A stretch of 64,000 nucleotides of DNA, taken from assembly GCA_951812755.1 (NCBI GenBank), contig OX638329.1, positions 124,001 through 188,000 on the forward strand. Direction: 5' to 3'. The translations under genes and the position numbers were made by a program. The first letter of the stretch is position 1. Every line of letters begins with the position of its first letter. Shown here piece after piece: positions 36,621-43,727 of this stretch. This DNA is from an uncultured Latescibacterota bacterium. GTDB lineage: Bacteria > Latescibacterota > UBA2968. A model generated the notes under the pieces. The model was not told where the DNA came from. It did no database searches and worked only from the letters and a program-made list of their open reading frames with translations.

Positions 36621-36637
36621 TCTTTCTAATGGACGTA

Positions 36638-36895
36638 TCAATACGCCTCGATTTTCTTCTGCCATTCATCCCATTCCTTTTCAACTTCTCGAAAAGCTGC
36701 CGCGATTCCCTCGTTGTCTTTCCAAATGCCGTGCGTCTGTGCCCGTGCTTCCAGCACCTTTTCTTTATTTTTTCCCAAAAGGGTGAGTTGTTTCGCGGGA
36801 AGTTCCGGGCGTTTTCGTTGTCGAAGGGCTTCTGGAATACGCATCCCGCCAATGCCAGCAAACAAATCAATAAATGTCCAATTGCTCGTATTCAT
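36638..36895 (-). pseudogene. Remnant of a DNA (cytosine-5) methyltransferase
   Basis: The first 20 residues (FIDLFAGIGGMRI) are motif I of a C5 DNA methyltransferase, but the frame then runs into an unrelated charged tail (residues 20-85, ending EWQKKIEAY). The PC, ENV and target-recognition motifs of the normal 300-400 aa enzyme are absent. An internal in-frame deletion or fusion is the simplest reading. With the adjacent IS607 element it suggests a lost restriction-modification locus. The remnant cannot be a working methyltransferase. Confidence 0.6.
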
Positions 36896-36916
36896 TACTC
36901 TGGATTATTCCTATCT

Positions 36917-37015
36917 TTAGAGTTCGAGCCAATCGTTCTTCTCTGTGAACTCAAAATGAAAGGGGATGTCACGTACAACTGAAAAATCTACAAGATTGAG
37001 CCGATCCTTTTTCAT
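36917..37015 (-). CDS. Possible 32-aa ORF upstream of the methyltransferase remnant
   Basis: The minus strand encodes a 32-residue frame beginning MKKDRLNLVDF and ending KNDWLEL, 21 bp before the methyltransferase remnant. It may be the tail of a gene interrupted by the IS607 insertion, re-opened by chance at an ATG, or a real small gene. No ribosome-binding site of note is seen. Confidence 0.25.
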   Translation of the reverse strand: MKKDRLNLVDFSVVRDIPFHFEFTEKNDWLEL

Positions 37016-37031
37016 TAACAGTAATTAACTA

Positions 37032-38246
37032 TTAACGATGCCCATTACAAATGCTTGCCTGTTGTAGTGGGGGGTGATCTCCCAAAGCACGGAGAAAGAT
37101 TCCCCGTGCGCCGTTTAAGTCTCTATCCATTGTTTGTCCGTCGTTTCCTGTTACTGTTTTGCGCCCGCCGAGACTGTCTATAACTTCGCCAGTCCAACTC
37201 ACTGTTTTAGACGTGTATGCCTCGTTTGCGTCTATGACCAGTTTGCCGTGCTCAAACGCTTTGTGCTTGAGAAATTGGCTGAAGCGATAATGACTAAGCG
37301 TGAGCATTTGGCGTACAGACTTGCGCCTTAATTTGCGCTTACCACGCTTGACCATGTTAGACGGCTCGAATTTGGGTAGCAGGATAACATCAAAGTTTTT
37401 GACCAGAAAACATGCTACTTTGTGGTGCATCTCGTCAACGAGGTCTCGTATCTTGTGTCGGATACGGTTACATGCTCTAAGCATGCGGTATCTACGCTTT
37501 GCCAATACTTTTGTTGAGCGAGAAATGAGGTCGTCTAAGTGCTGGCACAATCGCTGTATTTTACCGATTGCAAAGCGACCTAAAAAGCCACAACTGTTTT
37601 CTGAAAAAAACGCTTGGAAACAGCGAACACCTGGATCAAGTGCAACGACACGCGCTTGGTTCTCGCCTACGTGCCGTTGCACTTGTGTTGGAATAGTCAC
37701 ATAATAGCGTCCTTGATGGACAACTAAGCGACTATCCCGAATGTTATCAGGCAATGATTCGCTATAATGAATCTTACCTAATTTTGTGTGATACAAGCCT
37801 TTTGGCTTTACAGCAGATTTTGGTATATAACAAGATTGCTTAGGATGCTTGCGCGACTTGAAGCGTAATTTGTGTTTTCTCTGCTTGTCAATCTTGTTCT
37901 TTCTCTTTGCCTCACTCATTGCAACACATGCGTCGCGTATAGCAACGCTCTTAGACTGATAAGGCGCGTATGTCGCCCATGCTGGCAAGTCGCCGAGTAT
38001 GTCGCCCTTTATAGCTTTCCAACTTGCCACTGTATCAGGCTGTTTTAAATACTCAACAGTCTTGTTATACACATAGCGAGTAACGCCTATCCATTGCTTG
38101 ACAATCGTTCTTTGTTCAGCCGTCAGATAAAGACGTATCTTTTTTGATCTGACTATGGTAGCGTCTAAGTCCGTGCAATCTGCGAGAGAACGTATGCAAG
38201 ATGGACAAAATATCGTGGACAAGTTCTTCTTGTGGACTCTCGTCAT
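37032..38246 (-). CDS. tnpB: IS607-family TnpB, RNA-guided nuclease
   Basis: This 404-aa RuvC-type nuclease (ancestor type of Cas12) encoded by an IS element probably cuts DNA guided by an RNA from the element end. All three catalytic acids are present: Asp in ALDPGVRCF, Glu in LPKFEPSNM and Asp in MDRDLNGARG. The zinc-ribbon cysteines usual between the last two are replaced (TSKTVSWTGE, KTVTGNDG), as in a cysteine-free TnpB subgroup. ATG 38246 is the first in-frame ATG near the core (KKIRLYLTAEQ), overlapping tnpA by 131 bp. The frame stays open to 38570, deep inside tnpA, so a longer N-terminus is possible. Confidence 0.85.
   Translation of the reverse strand: MTRVHKKNLSTIFCPSCIRSLADCTDLDATIVRSKKIRLYLTAEQRTIVKQWIGVTRYVYNKTVEYLKQPDTVASWKAIKGDILGDLPAWATYAPYQSKSVAIRDACVAMSEAKRKNKIDKQRKHKLRFKSRKHPKQSCYIPKSAVKPKGLYHTKLGKIHYSESLPDNIRDSRLVVHQGRYYVTIPTQVQRHVGENQARVVALDPGVRCFQAFFSENSCGFLGRFAIGKIQRLCQHLDDLISRSTKVLAKRRYRMLRACNRIRHKIRDLVDEMHHKVACFLVKNFDVILLPKFEPSNMVKRGKRKLRRKSVRQMLTLSHYRFSQFLKHKAFEHGKLVIDANEAYTSKTVSWTGEVIDSLGGRKTVTGNDGQTMDRDLNGARGIFLRALGDHPPLQQASICNGHR
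37034..37115 (-). ncRNA. Possible TnpB guide (omega/re) RNA at the tnpB 3' end
   Basis: By family knowledge the guide RNA overlaps the 3' end of tnpB and runs past the element end. A stable hairpin GCACGG/CCGTGC (37087-37092 with 37104-37109) lies just before the stop codon. RNA boundaries and guide cannot be set from sequence alone. Confidence 0.3.
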
Positions 38247-38691
38247 TTCTGCTGAGAACCACGACCTCGCCACCGTTTTGTTGCGCCATCCACTCAATGA
38301 GTTCAAAGCCAAATCTTGTAAGACGGTCTTTGTGGGCAACCACAATTTTGAGTTTTTCCCCGCTATGTAGTCGCTCCAATATGGAAAGTAATCCTCTTCG
38401 CTTGTAGTTGAGTCCACCGCCAATGTCTTTGACAATTTCCGCTCCTTTGAATTGCTCTTGCATAGACGCGACTTGTCTATCAAGGTCGTCTTTTTGTTTT
38501 GGGCTACTGACTCGGCAGTAGCAAACAACGGCAGGGCTAATTGACCCTCGCAAGTAGTCATCGACATCATATCTGCGCTGTCCCGTTTTTGTGCGAAAAG
38601 ATTTAATACGACCAGTATCAGCCCAACGCCTCAATGTGTTGGGGTGCAATCCTAATCGCTCGCATGCAACTCTACTCGGAACATAATTCAT
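38116..38691 (-). CDS. tnpA: IS607-family TnpA serine recombinase
   Basis: This 191-aa transposase has an N-terminal MerR-like helix-turn-helix (residues 1-45, VACERLGLHPNTLRRWAD) that binds element ends, and a small serine recombinase domain with the nucleophile in CYCRVSSPKQ. Further conserved parts are KDIGGGLNYKRRG, HKDRLTRFGFELIEWM and DILSILHTFSRRLHGLRRY. ATG 38691 is preferred over an upstream TTG at 38706. The length is typical of the family. The 3' part is overlapped by the tnpB frame. It probably mediates excision and integration of the element. Confidence 0.9.
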   Translation of the reverse strand: MNYVPSRVACERLGLHPNTLRRWADTGRIKSFRTKTGQRRYDVDDYLRGSISPAVVCYCRVSSPKQKDDLDRQVASMQEQFKGAEIVKDIGGGLNYKRRGLLSILERLHSGEKLKIVVAHKDRLTRFGFELIEWMAQQNGGEVVVLSRNDESPQEELVHDILSILHTFSRRLHGLRRYHSQIKKDTSLSDG

Positions 38692-38706
38692 ATCAATGAT
38701 ATACAA

Positions 38707-39072: not shown

Positions 39073-40470
39073 ATGAGATATTTTATAGTAATCTGTATCC
39101 TGAGCCTATTGCATCACCCGACATTCGCACAGAATGGAAAAGCACTCTACATGACATATTGCGCGCAGTGTCACGGACCCGACTTGAGAGGGGGCAATGC
39201 ACCGAGCATGGTCGATGGCATCTGGAAATACGGAGACGGACGCGGCTATCGCATCCGCAACATCAAAAACGGACTCACCGACCTGGGCATGCCCGGCTAT
39301 GACAAACAGCTCACAAACAGGCAGATTGCGATGATCGTAGATTTTATCGAACAACAAGAAAAAGAAGTGGGCCAACCCAAACCTCCGCCGCCCGACTTTG
39401 TACAAACACTGGACTACGATATCAATGTAGATATCTGGGTCCAGGACCTGAAAATCCCCTGGGGAATCGACTTCATCGACCCACAAACAGCACTGATTAC
39501 CGAGCGTCCCGGCACACTGCGAATGGTAAAAAACGGACAACTCCTCGACCCCGTCGCGGGAACGCCCCAGGTAGTTCACGAAGGACAGGGCGGTTTAATG
39601 GACGTAGCAATAGACCCGAATTACGCTGAAAATGGATGGATTTACCTCGCCTACAGCCATGAACTCGCCCGCATTGCAGGGCAGCGACGGTCCCCAGCAA
39701 TGACGCGCCTCGTGCGCGGCCACATCAGGAACAACACCTATGTCAACCAACAAGTAATCTACGAAGCCCCACATGAAACCTATAGCACCACCCGGCATCA
39801 CTATGGCACCCGCATCGTATTCGATGCAGACGGATACCTCTACTTTGCAGTAGGAGACCGGGGCGCGCAAAACCAGGCACAGGACTTGACCCGGCCAAAT
39901 GGCAAAGTCCACCGCATCCACACAGACGGACGCATCCCCACAGACAATCCGTTCGCAGAAACAGAGGGCGCACTAAAAACCATCTATTCCTATGGTCATC
40001 GCAATCCCCAGGGCATGGCAGTCAACCCGGTTACTGGTAAAATATGGGACGGCGAGCACGGACCAATGGGCGGTGACGAACTCAACGTCGTAGCCAGAGG
40101 AAAAAACTACGGCTGGCCTGAAATCACCTACGGCCTCAACTACAACGGCACAATAGTCTCCGACCTCGTCAGCCAACCGGGGATGGAACAGCCAACCCTT
40201 TATTGGCGACCATCAATCGCCATCTGCGGCATCAACTTTTACCAGGGCAATATGTTCCCCAAATGGCAAAACAAATTGCTCGTGGCATCCCTGAAATACG
40301 AAGATGTACGAGTCCTATCCGTTAATGGAGACCGCGTCATACACGAAGAAGTAATCCTCAAAAACGCGGGACGGGTGCGCGAAGCTATATCCGGACCAGA
40401 CGGCGCAGTGTACGTAGTGCTCAACCAGCCCGATATGATCTTGCGCTTAACGCTAAATGAAGAGAGATAA
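39073..40470 (+). CDS. Cytochrome c-PQQ sugar dehydrogenase fusion (GSDH-like)
   Basis: This 465-aa periplasmic protein is predicted to oxidise an aldose or similar sugar with PQQ and pass electrons to its own haem. A signal peptide (residues 1-20, ending TFAQ) is followed by a cytochrome c domain with CAQCH haem attachment near residue 30 and an axial Met in LGMPGY. From about residue 115 runs a GSDH beta-propeller: ERPGTLRMV, GQGGLMDVAIDPNY, GTRIVFDADGYLY, YGHRNPQGMAV and the glucose dehydrogenase B-type GEHGPMGGDE segment. The haem domain is N-terminal here. GAGG upstream of the ATG supports the start. PQQ synthesis genes are not in the window. Confidence 0.88.
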   Translation: MRYFIVICILSLLHHPTFAQNGKALYMTYCAQCHGPDLRGGNAPSMVDGIWKYGDGRGYRIRNIKNGLTDLGMPGYDKQLTNRQIAMIVDFIEQQEKEVGQPKPPPPDFVQTLDYDINVDIWVQDLKIPWGIDFIDPQTALITERPGTLRMVKNGQLLDPVAGTPQVVHEGQGGLMDVAIDPNYAENGWIYLAYSHELARIAGQRRSPAMTRLVRGHIRNNTYVNQQVIYEAPHETYSTTRHHYGTRIVFDADGYLYFAVGDRGAQNQAQDLTRPNGKVHRIHTDGRIPTDNPFAETEGALKTIYSYGHRNPQGMAVNPVTGKIWDGEHGPMGGDELNVVARGKNYGWPEITYGLNYNGTIVSDLVSQPGMEQPTLYWRPSIAICGINFYQGNMFPKWQNKLLVASLKYEDVRVLSVNGDRVIHEEVILKNAGRVREAISGPDGAVYVVLNQPDMILRLTLNEER

Positions 40471-40563
40471 AGATCATTAGCCGCTTAAAAAAAATCCCTT
40501 TTTTCATCTGCATTCGGGATTGATTTCGGTATATTTGAACTAAACAACCCATTAGACGTGGTC

Positions 40564-40606
40564 TTGACATCTGGCCATCTTCGAATACATTGAAGAGTAG
40601 TATAAT
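40564..40606 (+). promoter_or_regulatory. Possible promoter elements of the toxin-antitoxin operon
   Basis: Exact TTGACA (40564-40569) and TATAAT (40601-40606) occur upstream of the antitoxin gene, but their 31-bp spacing is too long for one standard promoter. TATAAT alone may serve as the -10 box. Confidence 0.35.
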
Positions 40607-40668
40607 TCGCATTGTAGATCGCCTACTACGCCGTAAACACGCCACCAAAAATAGGGGAACTCCACGTT

Positions 40669-41268
40669 ATGTCTGACCTCACACCTGCTGAGACGTTCAT
40701 ACCGACACTGGAAGTGCCTCAGTTCAAAGAACACAAGACGACCCAGGTTGCTGCGATACTCGCAACTTATTGTGGCGGTAAAATTGATGTACATAAACTG
40801 GTCAAATTAATTTATCTCATTGATAGAGAGTCTCTGAAACGTCGGGGAAGTCCAATAACTTATGACCGTCCATATAACATGCCATTAGGCCCAACACCAG
40901 GTAACACATATCGTCTCATTAACAATCCGTGGACAGGGGAATATTGGTCTCAATTTTTTTCTCCTCCTGAATCCCCGCATGTCATTAAGTTACTCAGGGA
41001 TGATACAGGTGAAGATAAACTATCTCGCTTTGAAATTGATTTGATACGCGAGGTATTTGAGAAATTCGGGAAAAAATCATTTAATGAATTACAGAGATAC
41101 ATGCATTCTTTACCAGAATTTGATGACCCTGGCAGATTGTCTTCTCCAATAGATTGGGACACCTTGCTCAAGGCTGTGGGATGGTATGGTGATGATTTAA
41201 TAGCGATTAAACAAAAACTCAGTGGAAGGGCAATGTTTGAACGCAGGATTGAAAATATGAGTCAATAA
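40669..41268 (+). CDS. Panacea-domain (DUF4065/SocA-like) antitoxin
   Basis: This 199-aa soluble protein has a Panacea domain (about residues 25-150), recognised from KLVKLIYLIDRESLKRRG, SPITYDRPYNMPLGPTPGN and the following helical part ending FNELQRYMHSLPEF. Panacea proteins are established as antitoxins that neutralise many unrelated toxins encoded beside them, and SocA of Caulobacter is also a proteolysis adaptor for its toxin. The gene is followed 16 bp later by a 121-aa protein with a PemK-like pattern, then a terminator, so the pair forms a compact operon. Toxin identity and antitoxin mechanism remain inference. Confidence 0.72.
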   Translation: MSDLTPAETFIPTLEVPQFKEHKTTQVAAILATYCGGKIDVHKLVKLIYLIDRESLKRRGSPITYDRPYNMPLGPTPGNTYRLINNPWTGEYWSQFFSPPESPHVIKLLRDDTGEDKLSRFEIDLIREVFEKFGKKSFNELQRYMHSLPEFDDPGRLSSPIDWDTLLKAVGWYGDDLIAIKQKLSGRAMFERRIENMSQ

Positions 41269-41284
41269 ATAAGATAGGAAAAAT

Positions 41285-41650
41285 ATGCCGTTAGCAGGAA
41301 GATGTGTATTGATTGATGATTCTGGGGGACATCATTTATACTTATTTCTTATAGAATGCGTGGGCAATCCACCACAAACAATACTGTTGAACATCACGTC
41401 ATGGTATCCGGGAATAGATGAAACATGTATCCTTCAACCGAATGATCATCCTTTTGTCCGAACGAAATCGGTTATTGCTTATGAATATGCGGACATACTG
41501 GAAGAATGGCGGGCCAATATTCTTCTGCGTGATGGTATTTTTCAACCGCCTATAGCACCAACCCTATTGCTCAAAATTCGTCAAGGGCTTTGTGAATCAG
41601 ACGAAACACCAGAAGAAGTAAAAGAGTTTTATCAAAGGTATTGCACATAA
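41285..41650 (+). CDS. Putative toxin of the Panacea pair, PemK/MazF-like
   Basis: This 121-aa protein contains LLNITSWYPGIDETCILQP followed by NDHPFVRTKSVIAYEYAD, a pattern of PemK-like endoribonuclease toxins (NITT...D.sC.L..GDHPFI...S.V.Y). The size fits a small toxin. It lies 16 bp after the antitoxin gene and 35 bp before a strong terminator. In this layout the antitoxin is first, and co-expression would keep the toxin blocked. MazF-type RNA cleavage is predicted from fold resemblance only, and catalytic residues cannot be assigned with certainty. Confidence 0.5.
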   Translation: MPLAGRCVLIDDSGGHHLYLFLIECVGNPPQTILLNITSWYPGIDETCILQPNDHPFVRTKSVIAYEYADILEEWRANILLRDGIFQPPIAPTLLLKIRQGLCESDETPEEVKEFYQRYCT

Positions 41651-41684
41651 TTGAAATTATTTTTCGGCAAAGTGGACGGATGAC

Positions 41685-41716
41685 AAAAGGGATGCAAACA
41701 ACCTTGCATCCCTTTT
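41685..41716 (+). terminator. Intrinsic terminator of the toxin-antitoxin operon
   Basis: AAAAGGGATGCAA (41685-41697) pairs with TTGCATCCCTTTT (41704-41716) around a 6-base loop and is followed by a CTTTT tract. The stem is perfect. Confidence 0.9.
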
Positions 41717-41741
41717 CTTTTAAGGTAAAATTTTATACATC

Positions 41742-43727
41742 ATGGCATTCGCGCAACCCATAAACAACACCGAAGCCTTGCCCAATCGCGACCGCGTAAC
41801 CGCGCGTTGTGTCCTGCTGGGGTTGGGACTCGTCATAACCGTAAACACCTGGCCCATCTACGGACTCTATGTAATCCACATCAACCAGATGGTATTCAGC
41901 TACATGGCGATGGCACTCATGATCCCATTTGTAGTGCTATCCCTGGGGCTGAACGTACTCCTGCGAAAATACTGGCCCCGCGCCGCGTTTTCCCCCCTCG
42001 AAATGGCCATCGTATTTTCCATGGGGCTGGTGGGCGCATTATTTCCCCTCATGAACTTCACCGGACTCATCATGGGGCACCTCGCAACCCCCTATTATTT
42101 TGCCTCCGCGCAAAACCGGTGGTCCGAATTTCTCCATCCGCACTTGCCGCACTGGTTATTCCCCACAGATGACAACGGCGCCATGCGCCTCTTCTTCGAA
42201 GGCCTGCCGCCCGGCCATGCAATACCATGGGAAGTCTGGATCGTACCCCTATTCTGGTGGTTTGCATTTGCAGGCGCAATCACCTGGACCTGCTTGTGCA
42301 TCGCCGTGATTTTGCGACGACAGTGGTCCGAACACGAAAAACTGCCATTTCCCGCGGCACAGGTCGCGCTGGAACTCGTACGAGAAGAAAACAAAAAAAT
42401 ATGGCCGCCTCTCGTAGGCCGCCCGGCATTCTGGATCGGCATGGCAATTCCACTAACCGTAATATGCTGGAATATCCTATCGTATTTCATGCCCGACTTC
42501 CCAAAAATACCCATCACACGAGCGGGTGACGGCGTCACATTTTTGCACATCAGTCGATATATTCCAGATCGGTACTTCTATATCGGAATACAATTTTTTA
42601 TCGCGGGCTTTGCCTACTGGACCAGCCTGGACGTACTATTTTCCATCTGGTTTTTTTATCTACTCGTCGTAGCCGAAGTCTATACCTTTAACCGAATCGG
42701 ATACACCATTGGAACACCGGGACTGTGGTCTTCAACACACGCAGCCAATGCCTGGCAGGCATTTGGCGCACTCGCATGTATGCTATGCCTGGGATTGTGG
42801 ATGGGACGCGAACACCTCAAAGGCGTCTGGCATGCCATCAGAGGGCGAAAAAAATTAGACGACACCGAAGAACTCATGTCCTACCGCACAGCCGGCTTAT
42901 GTGGCCTAGCCGGATTGTTATTCATCATCGGATGGCTACACACCGCGGGCATGGCCTGGTACGTAATCGTACCCTTTCTAATCGGCATGGGCATATTGTA
43001 CATAGGCATAGCCCGCGTCATTGCCGAAAGCGGATTGGTCTATCTGCGCGGCTCCATGATGCCCCCGACCTTCGCCCTCTACACCCTCGGCTCGGCGAAT
43101 GTCCCGGCGGCGAGCATGGCAAATTTCGCGTTCTCTTTTGCGTATTTTACAGACGCCAAAAGCCTCGCCATGGCCAGCATGGCGCATTGCTCGTGGATCA
43201 CAGCAGCCATAAAAGGACGCAAACGCATGATAGCGATTGCCCTGGTACTGGCCGGCATTGCAGCCGCAGTCTCATCAGTCGCATTCACACTGTATCTGGG
43301 CTATGAAACCGGCGCGTATAACTTCAGAGCATTTGAATTTCGCACGCACCCGCGGATCTTCGACTACTGGATCCGACAGATGCAAACCTTTAACCCACCC
43401 GACTGGAAGCGAATTGGATTCTTCGGCTTTGGCGCAGCCGGAATGGCACTATTGACATTCTTGCGGTATCGCGTATCCTGGTGGCCCTTGCACCCCGTTG
43501 GATTCGCCATCATGGAAACCCAGGCCGTGCGGGGAACGATCTTTACAATATTCCTCGTATGGCTGTGCAAATTGCTCATCCTGCAAATCGGCGGCATCGC
43601 GCTATACCGCAAAGGCCAACCATTATTTCTCGGTATCCTCGTCGGGTTTATCCTGGGCGTGGCAATCTCGGCAACAGTAGATACAATCTGGTTTCCAGGC
43701 AGCGGGCATTCGGTTCACCATTGGTAA
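41742..43727 (+). CDS. Large polytopic membrane protein, DUF6785/DUF6784-like
   Basis: This 661-aa integral membrane protein has roughly fourteen hydrophobic segments spread over the whole length, beginning with LGLVITVNTWPIYGLYVI near residue 28. Recognisable conserved parts include FSPLEMAIVFSMGLVGALFP, FWWFAFAGAITWTCLCIAVI, KLPFPAAQVALELV and YRVSWWPLHPVGFAI, which match large proteins of the DUF6785/DUF6784 group, distantly similar to oligopeptide transporters (OPT). Its substrate is unknown. It stands alone, after the toxin-antitoxin terminator and before a REP-rich gap leading into the atp operon. Only a weak ribosome-binding site precedes the ATG. Confidence 0.7.
   Translation: MAFAQPINNTEALPNRDRVTARCVLLGLGLVITVNTWPIYGLYVIHINQMVFSYMAMALMIPFVVLSLGLNVLLRKYWPRAAFSPLEMAIVFSMGLVGALFPLMNFTGLIMGHLATPYYFASAQNRWSEFLHPHLPHWLFPTDDNGAMRLFFEGLPPGHAIPWEVWIVPLFWWFAFAGAITWTCLCIAVILRRQWSEHEKLPFPAAQVALELVREENKKIWPPLVGRPAFWIGMAIPLTVICWNILSYFMPDFPKIPITRAGDGVTFLHISRYIPDRYFYIGIQFFIAGFAYWTSLDVLFSIWFFYLLVVAEVYTFNRIGYTIGTPGLWSSTHAANAWQAFGALACMLCLGLWMGREHLKGVWHAIRGRKKLDDTEELMSYRTAGLCGLAGLLFIIGWLHTAGMAWYVIVPFLIGMGILYIGIARVIAESGLVYLRGSMMPPTFALYTLGSANVPAASMANFAFSFAYFTDAKSLAMASMAHCSWITAAIKGRKRMIAIALVLAGIAAAVSSVAFTLYLGYETGAYNFRAFEFRTHPRIFDYWIRQMQTFNPPDWKRIGFFGFGAAGMALLTFLRYRVSWWPLHPVGFAIMETQAVRGTIFTIFLVWLCKLLILQIGGIALYRKGQPLFLGILVGFILGVAISATVDTIWFPGSGHSVHHW

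Follow-up and report, generated by a model that had tools for sequence, protein, structure and literature searches.

Panacea antitoxins were named by Kurata et al. in 2022 (PMC8832971), who list PemK among their toxin partners. In that paper, the toxins (PanTs) of Pseudomonas moraviensis and Bifidobacterium ruminantium were validated and are neutralised by Panacea proteins (PanAs). Both lack CDD hits, resemble EndoA, PemK and MazF by HHpred and inhibit protein synthesis. For the P. moraviensis PanT, which is toxic, the cognate PanA both neutralises the toxin and comes down with it in pull-downs, and the toxin acts as a specific inhibitor of protein synthesis. The paper also reports eight tested PanTs that were non-toxic in E. 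coli, five that were toxic but not rescued, and tested PanAs that needed neither ClpXP nor Lon. SocAB of Caulobacter resembles these systems in its Panacea antitoxin but differs in mechanism, as its Panacea protein is a ClpXP adaptor, neutralisation proceeds by proteolysis and SocB blocks replication (PMC8832971). The NetFlax study of 2023 (PMC10440598) describes MazF/PemK as a common fold in the network and stand-alone Panacea domains as neutralising directly.

We analyzed a stretch of 64,000 nucleotides from an uncultured Latescibacterota bacterium (hereafter, the window) and focused on two adjacent genes on its forward strand, panA (40669..41268, 199 aa) and panT (41285..41650, 121 aa; its product is called T below). 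The two open reading frames are separated by 16 nt, against at most 100 nt for a PanAT locus. Downstream lies the intrinsic terminator hairpin of the operon (41685..41716, forward strand; inverted repeat I2), followed by a T-rich tail. In the inverted-repeat search its 13-bp arms (41685-41697/41704-41716) are 100% complementary and enclose a 6-nt loop. The hairpin folds at -18.6 kcal/mol (z -4.1), a value equalled by 1 of 200 shuffles, and was not listed by a simple terminator scan. The initial annotation, made from the sequence alone, had described a compact two-gene operon at 40669-41650 ended by a perfect terminator; its coordinates are exact and the stem is indeed perfect. Promoter-like sites in the region number six against 5.7 expected by chance, and given this chance-level count we do not claim the best of them (40564-40591) as a promoter. 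Within the cassette, a search for repeats and operators returned only short two-copy repeats, which we judged to be chance. One 15-nt inverted-repeat pair (40494-40508/41679-41693, 93% complementary) was considered as a possible mobile-element mark but, as a single pair, was set aside.

We interpret panA and panT, with considerable confidence, as a type II toxin-antitoxin operon belonging to the PanAT systems, in which a toxin of the MazF/PemK fold is held in check by Panacea. Free PanT would stop growth, most likely through RNA cleavage that blocks translation. The stand-alone PanA encoded upstream would bind PanT directly and keep it inactive. Loss of PanA, or a trigger such as a phage that disturbs the complex, would release PanT and halt the cell. 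Such a release would favour retention of the cassette by the genome and may help the population to withstand phage.

PanA matches SocA_Panacea (PF13274) over residues 44-148 with E 1e-16 and a score of 62.2 bits (cut-off 25.7), so the upstream gene was correctly called a Panacea antitoxin. All 19 aligned PanA members, the window included (alignment A4), match PF13274, and only one match to any other family was found among them, in one member (E 2.6e-4). Because these PanAs match almost no family but PF13274, direct, conformational neutralisation is the natural expectation for the window pair. In the alignment, the window PanA carries about 17 extra N-terminal residues that most phage relatives lack. 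Its AlphaFold model (pLDDT 82.6, pTM 0.80) is of low confidence over the 10 N-terminal residues and near residues 88-107, and its best VIA-align match, to a putative phage protein (7r6s_A), is weak (Z 4.0). Across 33 PanAT pairs, picked by hand to reduce redundancy and all with two open frames, the signature triplet of PanA is GPV in 22, GPT in 8 (the window and seven relatives) and GPI in 3. In one PanA, G62A and V64S together are reported to abolish neutralisation, while either change alone does not (PMC8832971).

T itself had no match in Pfam (E up to 1), NCBIfam or PADLOC, and a match to PemK/MazF (PF02452) was absent in 24 T members. It does match phrog_19071 (E 9e-10), as do all 24 aligned T proteins, the window included (best E 4.9e-59). 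The T proteins thus belong to a family that itself carries no function in PHROGs. Searching the PDB by sequence with T, singly and as a profile, returned nothing meaningful.

The initial annotation had put forward structure prediction of the pair as a check. The AlphaFold model of T, built with 22 aligned sequences (the window and related loci), has a pLDDT of 83.1 and a pTM of 0.78, with strands at residues 6-12, 15-22 and 31-39. Searched against the PDB with Foldseek, the best 50 of 283 matches (E up to 10) are MazF-family chains only, a classification made partly by their titles. The best match, 5xe3_A (E 4.7e-4, TM 0.58/0.66), is the sole one of the 283 below E 0.001. VIA-align superimposed the model on MazF-mt3 (5hkc_B; Z 9.6, rmsd 3.3 Å, 101 residues), CcdB (3tcj_B; Z 8.9, 2.8 Å, 93 residues) and Kid (1m1f_B; Z 8.1, 3.5 Å, 95 residues), and rows within one Z of each other count as tied. 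Among viral structure models, the best named matches are PemK-like proteins. By its model, then, T has the MazF/PemK/Kid/CcdB fold, which alone does not fix the target. The PemK-like partner proposed earlier on the basis of one motif is therefore borne out at the level of the fold, by AlphaFold, Foldseek and VIA-align together. The accompanying description as a 121-aa GDHPF-like protein was right about the length and needs amending in the motif, which reads NDHPF in the window; most family members (26 of 33) have G in place of the N.

We compared the profile of the 33 T proteins with that of the 28 top-scoring PF02452 proteins from relatives' genomes (30 loci were retrieved; L146 and L161 were left out). 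One run aligns 99 columns, nearly the whole length. A second has a best local score of 23.5 over 68 columns, higher than any of 100 column shuffles (at most 18.8) and than the reversed profile (12.4). The HH probability in these runs is 14-16%. In the 99-column alignment, which is of low confidence, the 'RP' of MazF with its catalytic Arg (28 of 28) is placed opposite His17-Leu18 of T, where all 33 members have His, and the Thr of the MazF 'ITS' (27 T, 1 S) opposite T38, a position with T in 19 members, S in 11, C in 2 and I in 1. Both correspondences, made at the same low confidence, fit the strand order of the T model, in which the Arg/His position opens strand 2 and the Thr position closes strand 3. 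His17, His55 and Tyr66 are invariant among the T proteins (n=33), and position 45 is Asp in 31 and Glu in 2 of the 33.

In MazF of B. cereus and B. subtilis, the catalytic residues are Arg25 and Thr48. The proposed role of the Arg is that of general acid/base and that of the Thr is to stabilise charge; the enzyme is crippled when either is mutated, and in one mycobacterial MazF the Arg is replaced by Lys (PMC7354611). Because the catalytic Arg is seemingly missing from T, it is not certain that T cuts RNA in the way MazF does; T may be an RNase with an altered active site, or a MazF-fold toxin with a different target. Compared with MazF, PemK and Kid (PF02452), T shares the predicted fold over nearly its whole length and, by the low-confidence alignment, the catalytic Thr position. 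It differs in lacking a Pfam match, in carrying, by the same alignment, His17 at the Arg position in all 33 members, and in being paired with Panacea rather than with MazE or PemI.

The apparent replacement of Arg by His gives some weight to a variant of our interpretation, in which the pair is a Panacea system whose MazF-fold toxin poisons DNA gyrase as CcdB does, or binds some other target, without cutting RNA. The tie between CcdB and MazF chains in structural Z points the same way. We nevertheless consider this variant improbable, as only MazF-family chains occur among the best 50 of 283 Foldseek matches, T38 retains, in the alignment, the position of the catalytic Thr, and the P. moraviensis PanT, probably a homolog, inhibits protein synthesis specifically (PMC8832971). 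This homology is suggested by the antitoxins: the corrected P. moraviensis PanA starts with MIFSEQKVAQ (PMC8832971), against VIFSEQKVAQM in Pseudomonas phage Sirocco, where PanA is paired with a protein of the T family. From this sequence likeness the P. moraviensis PanT is probably a member of the T family, with the proviso that Panacea proteins are known to swap partners.

For the family as a whole, we suggest tentatively, and with somewhat less than even confidence, that phrog_19071 is a distinct branch of MazF-fold toxins. An invariant His would take the place of the catalytic Arg, serving either His-based RNA cutting or another target, and the branch would occur only behind Panacea, and not behind MazE-like antitoxins, in the Latescibacterota, proteobacterial plasmids and phages searched. 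The replacement is possibly unreported. We found no report of a MazF-fold PanT with His for Arg in the literature searched, although the supplementary cluster lists of Kurata et al. may contain such a remark.

Turning to the PanAT operon as a unit, the same Panacea-T order occurs in phages of Klebsiella, Escherichia, Yersinia, Pseudomonas and Vibrio, in a Helicobacter prophage, and on plasmids of Endozoicomonas, Phaeobacter, Acinetobacter and Acetobacter (a second Phaeobacter record, H6/H18, and two Yersinia phages, H13 and H14, among the matched records were not included). The two genes overlap by 4 nt in many of the viral pairs. Window T is deeply diverged from the A1 members found on phages and plasmids (22-29% identity), and 87% identical to its nearest named relative, in Candidatus Latescibacterota bacterium isolate 277c_43 (L004; L012 was taken as the same contig, from its length and sequence). 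Among 5,426 complete E. coli genomes, 205 match the pair of Escherichia phage SKA5, and in 203 the match covers 80% or more of the pair. A scan of genome contigs, which reaches close relatives, gave one locus only, four of eight scans of viral contigs gave no relative, and the phylum of genome G083 gave one of nine genomes, G083 itself. Phage copies occupy ordinary accessory positions, for instance next to an integrase or near a portal gene. Separately, 20 viral contigs (L066, L067, L070 and 17 others) have one of their ends exactly at the T gene (match 1-399), and for many more the end lies 569 bases earlier, at the Panacea gene, which places the pair at the edge of many predicted prophages.

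We also assessed whether the frames were intact across 114 loci, most of them near-identical viral contigs (102 viral loci were confirmed and 80 kept; all 80 entered the test, and frames were listed for 35 of the 76 new ones). Panacea is present in all 94 loci with upstream sequence (one is cut by the contig end); the other 20 start at the T gene, so that what lies upstream is not visible. A motif test found both frames open in 85 loci and a stop in T with an open Panacea in 3. It missed Panacea in 6, all of which carry it in the profile search (L025 is the one cut by the contig end). In total, T contains a stop in four loci (L003, L019, L022 and L039), each with an open Panacea frame, and an open T behind a broken Panacea was found in none of the 88 loci in which the motif test detected Panacea. 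Decay that begins with the toxin is the pattern that a toxin-antitoxin pair should show, although four cases are few. One of the four, L003 (G000:C1:791945-792250), is a third copy of the pair in the window's own genome, with a stop in the toxin gene and an open Panacea frame. Alignment A1 left out L003, L012, L019 and L022, and alignment A3 left out L039 because of the stop in T.

The chromosomal site of the operon can be compared across the genus. It is flanked by a glucose/sorbosone dehydrogenase-type gene (39073-40470) and a DUF6785/DUF6784 gene (41742-43727), both closely matched in all 11 genus genomes and adjacent in 10 (G008 is the exception). In the window, the gap between them (40471-41741) measures 1,271 bp and holds PanAT. 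Five relatives (G001, G004, G005, G006 and G007) have an empty site, with 24 bp between the flanks. In four others (G002, G003, G009 and G010), a gap of 891-893 bp encodes, on the opposite strand, a 98-aa protein and a second protein, which in the L004/G009 copy matches the MqsA-family antitoxin TIGR03830 (66.0 bits against a cut-off of 61.8). In the window, the 20 bp that run from the end of the gap through the start codon of the downstream gene (41725..41744, forward strand) match the right edge of the MqsA-type cassettes, identically in G003, G009 and G010 and with one mismatch in G002; this edge was not seen in the five empty sites. The 22-mer at 41725-41746 occurs once in the window and in none of 100 shuffles, allowing up to 3 mismatches. 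This shared edge makes it probable that PanAT took the place of an MqsA-type cassette that stood here before. The downstream DUF6785/DUF6784 membrane family has 31-60 matches per genome in the 11 genus genomes, a striking expansion.

In L004, a PanAT copy 91% identical to that of the window lies at a distance of a few kilobases, next to a gene for a C5 cytosine methyltransferase. The window retains only the two ends of this methyltransferase region (36628-36821 and 36834-37002). Because PanAT stands at another position in L004, the cassette has thus either changed place or arrived twice. In the window, the methyltransferase remnant (36628-37002) is followed by a resolvase and TnpB-like pair on the reverse strand (37032-38706).

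These observations bear on the possibility that T is not a toxin at all, but a MazF-fold RNA-binding protein that cooperates with Panacea in an ordinary operon of phage or regulatory type. The accessory positions of the phage copies would suit such an operon, and the toxicity of the window pair is something we infer. Still, we think this quite unlikely. The two genes make up a cassette that has its own terminator and occupies a site left empty in close relatives, the broken frames are those of T and not of PanA, several divergent copies reside in one genome, and validated Panacea/MazF-like pairs exist (PMC8832971).

Linkage, selection and divergence of the two genes support the reading of panA and panT as a toxin-antitoxin operon. 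We searched 100 genomes (the window's own and relatives) with T alone, which gave 20 matches in 13 genomes, and separately with Panacea, which gave 52 matches (51 above the cut-off) in 28 genomes. Wide occurrence of each gene without the other had been named in the initial annotation as evidence against a pair. For the toxin we found the opposite, as all 20 T matches lie directly downstream of a Panacea gene on the same strand. Panacea occurs without T in 32 of its 52 matches, as expected from the earlier statement that Panacea proteins pair with many toxins. Between the window and L004, its nearest relative, dN/dS is 0.22 for T and 0.24 for PanA; both frames are under purifying selection, and both are therefore genes. 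Across the 33 pairs, the pairwise distances of T and PanA are strongly correlated (Mantel r 0.852, with 0 of 2000 permutations as high). This correlated divergence stems partly from shared ancestry and shows that T and PanA travel together, not that they are in contact. Although Panacea often stands without T, a chance or remnant adjacency of a Panacea gene and an unrelated small ORF is refuted by the linkage of all 20 T matches in the 100 genomes, and the correlated divergence and a dN/dS of about 0.2 in both genes leave such an adjacency next to no probability.

The window's own genome contains two other Panacea genes with other neighbors. Around position 1495037, Panacea is followed by a 133-aa protein with hydrophobic stretches (L029, 1003-1911), and around 303432 by proteins of 113 and 97 aa, also with hydrophobic stretches (L030, 776-1950). 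None of these small proteins has a Pfam match over the cut-off. By eye, they look like the membrane-acting type of PanT. Besides its T copies, this genome (G000) has eight PF02452 (PemK/MazF) matches, which indicates that it is rich in toxin-antitoxin genes.

The suggestion in the initial annotation that the partner could be a new combination does not stand, because the pairing of Panacea with EndoA/PemK/MazF-like toxins was already known and validated (PMC8832971). The window pair resembles the P. moraviensis and B. ruminantium systems in joining a Panacea antitoxin to a toxin without a recognized domain that is MazF/PemK-like by remote comparison. It differs from them in its deep divergence, its Latescibacterota origin, and the GPT triplet and N-terminal extension of its PanA, and it probably shares its toxin family with the P. 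moraviensis pair. What is new here is the Latescibacterota host and the divergence of the pair, the apparent replacement of Arg by His, the probable cassette exchange at a single site and a suggested function for phrog_19071. This phage family, which lacks a name and occurs behind Panacea in prophages, would thereby gain a function, as a toxin. Finally, a site that within one genus is empty, carries an MqsA-type pair or carries PanAT offers a clean natural example of toxin-antitoxin cassette exchange at one chromosomal spot.
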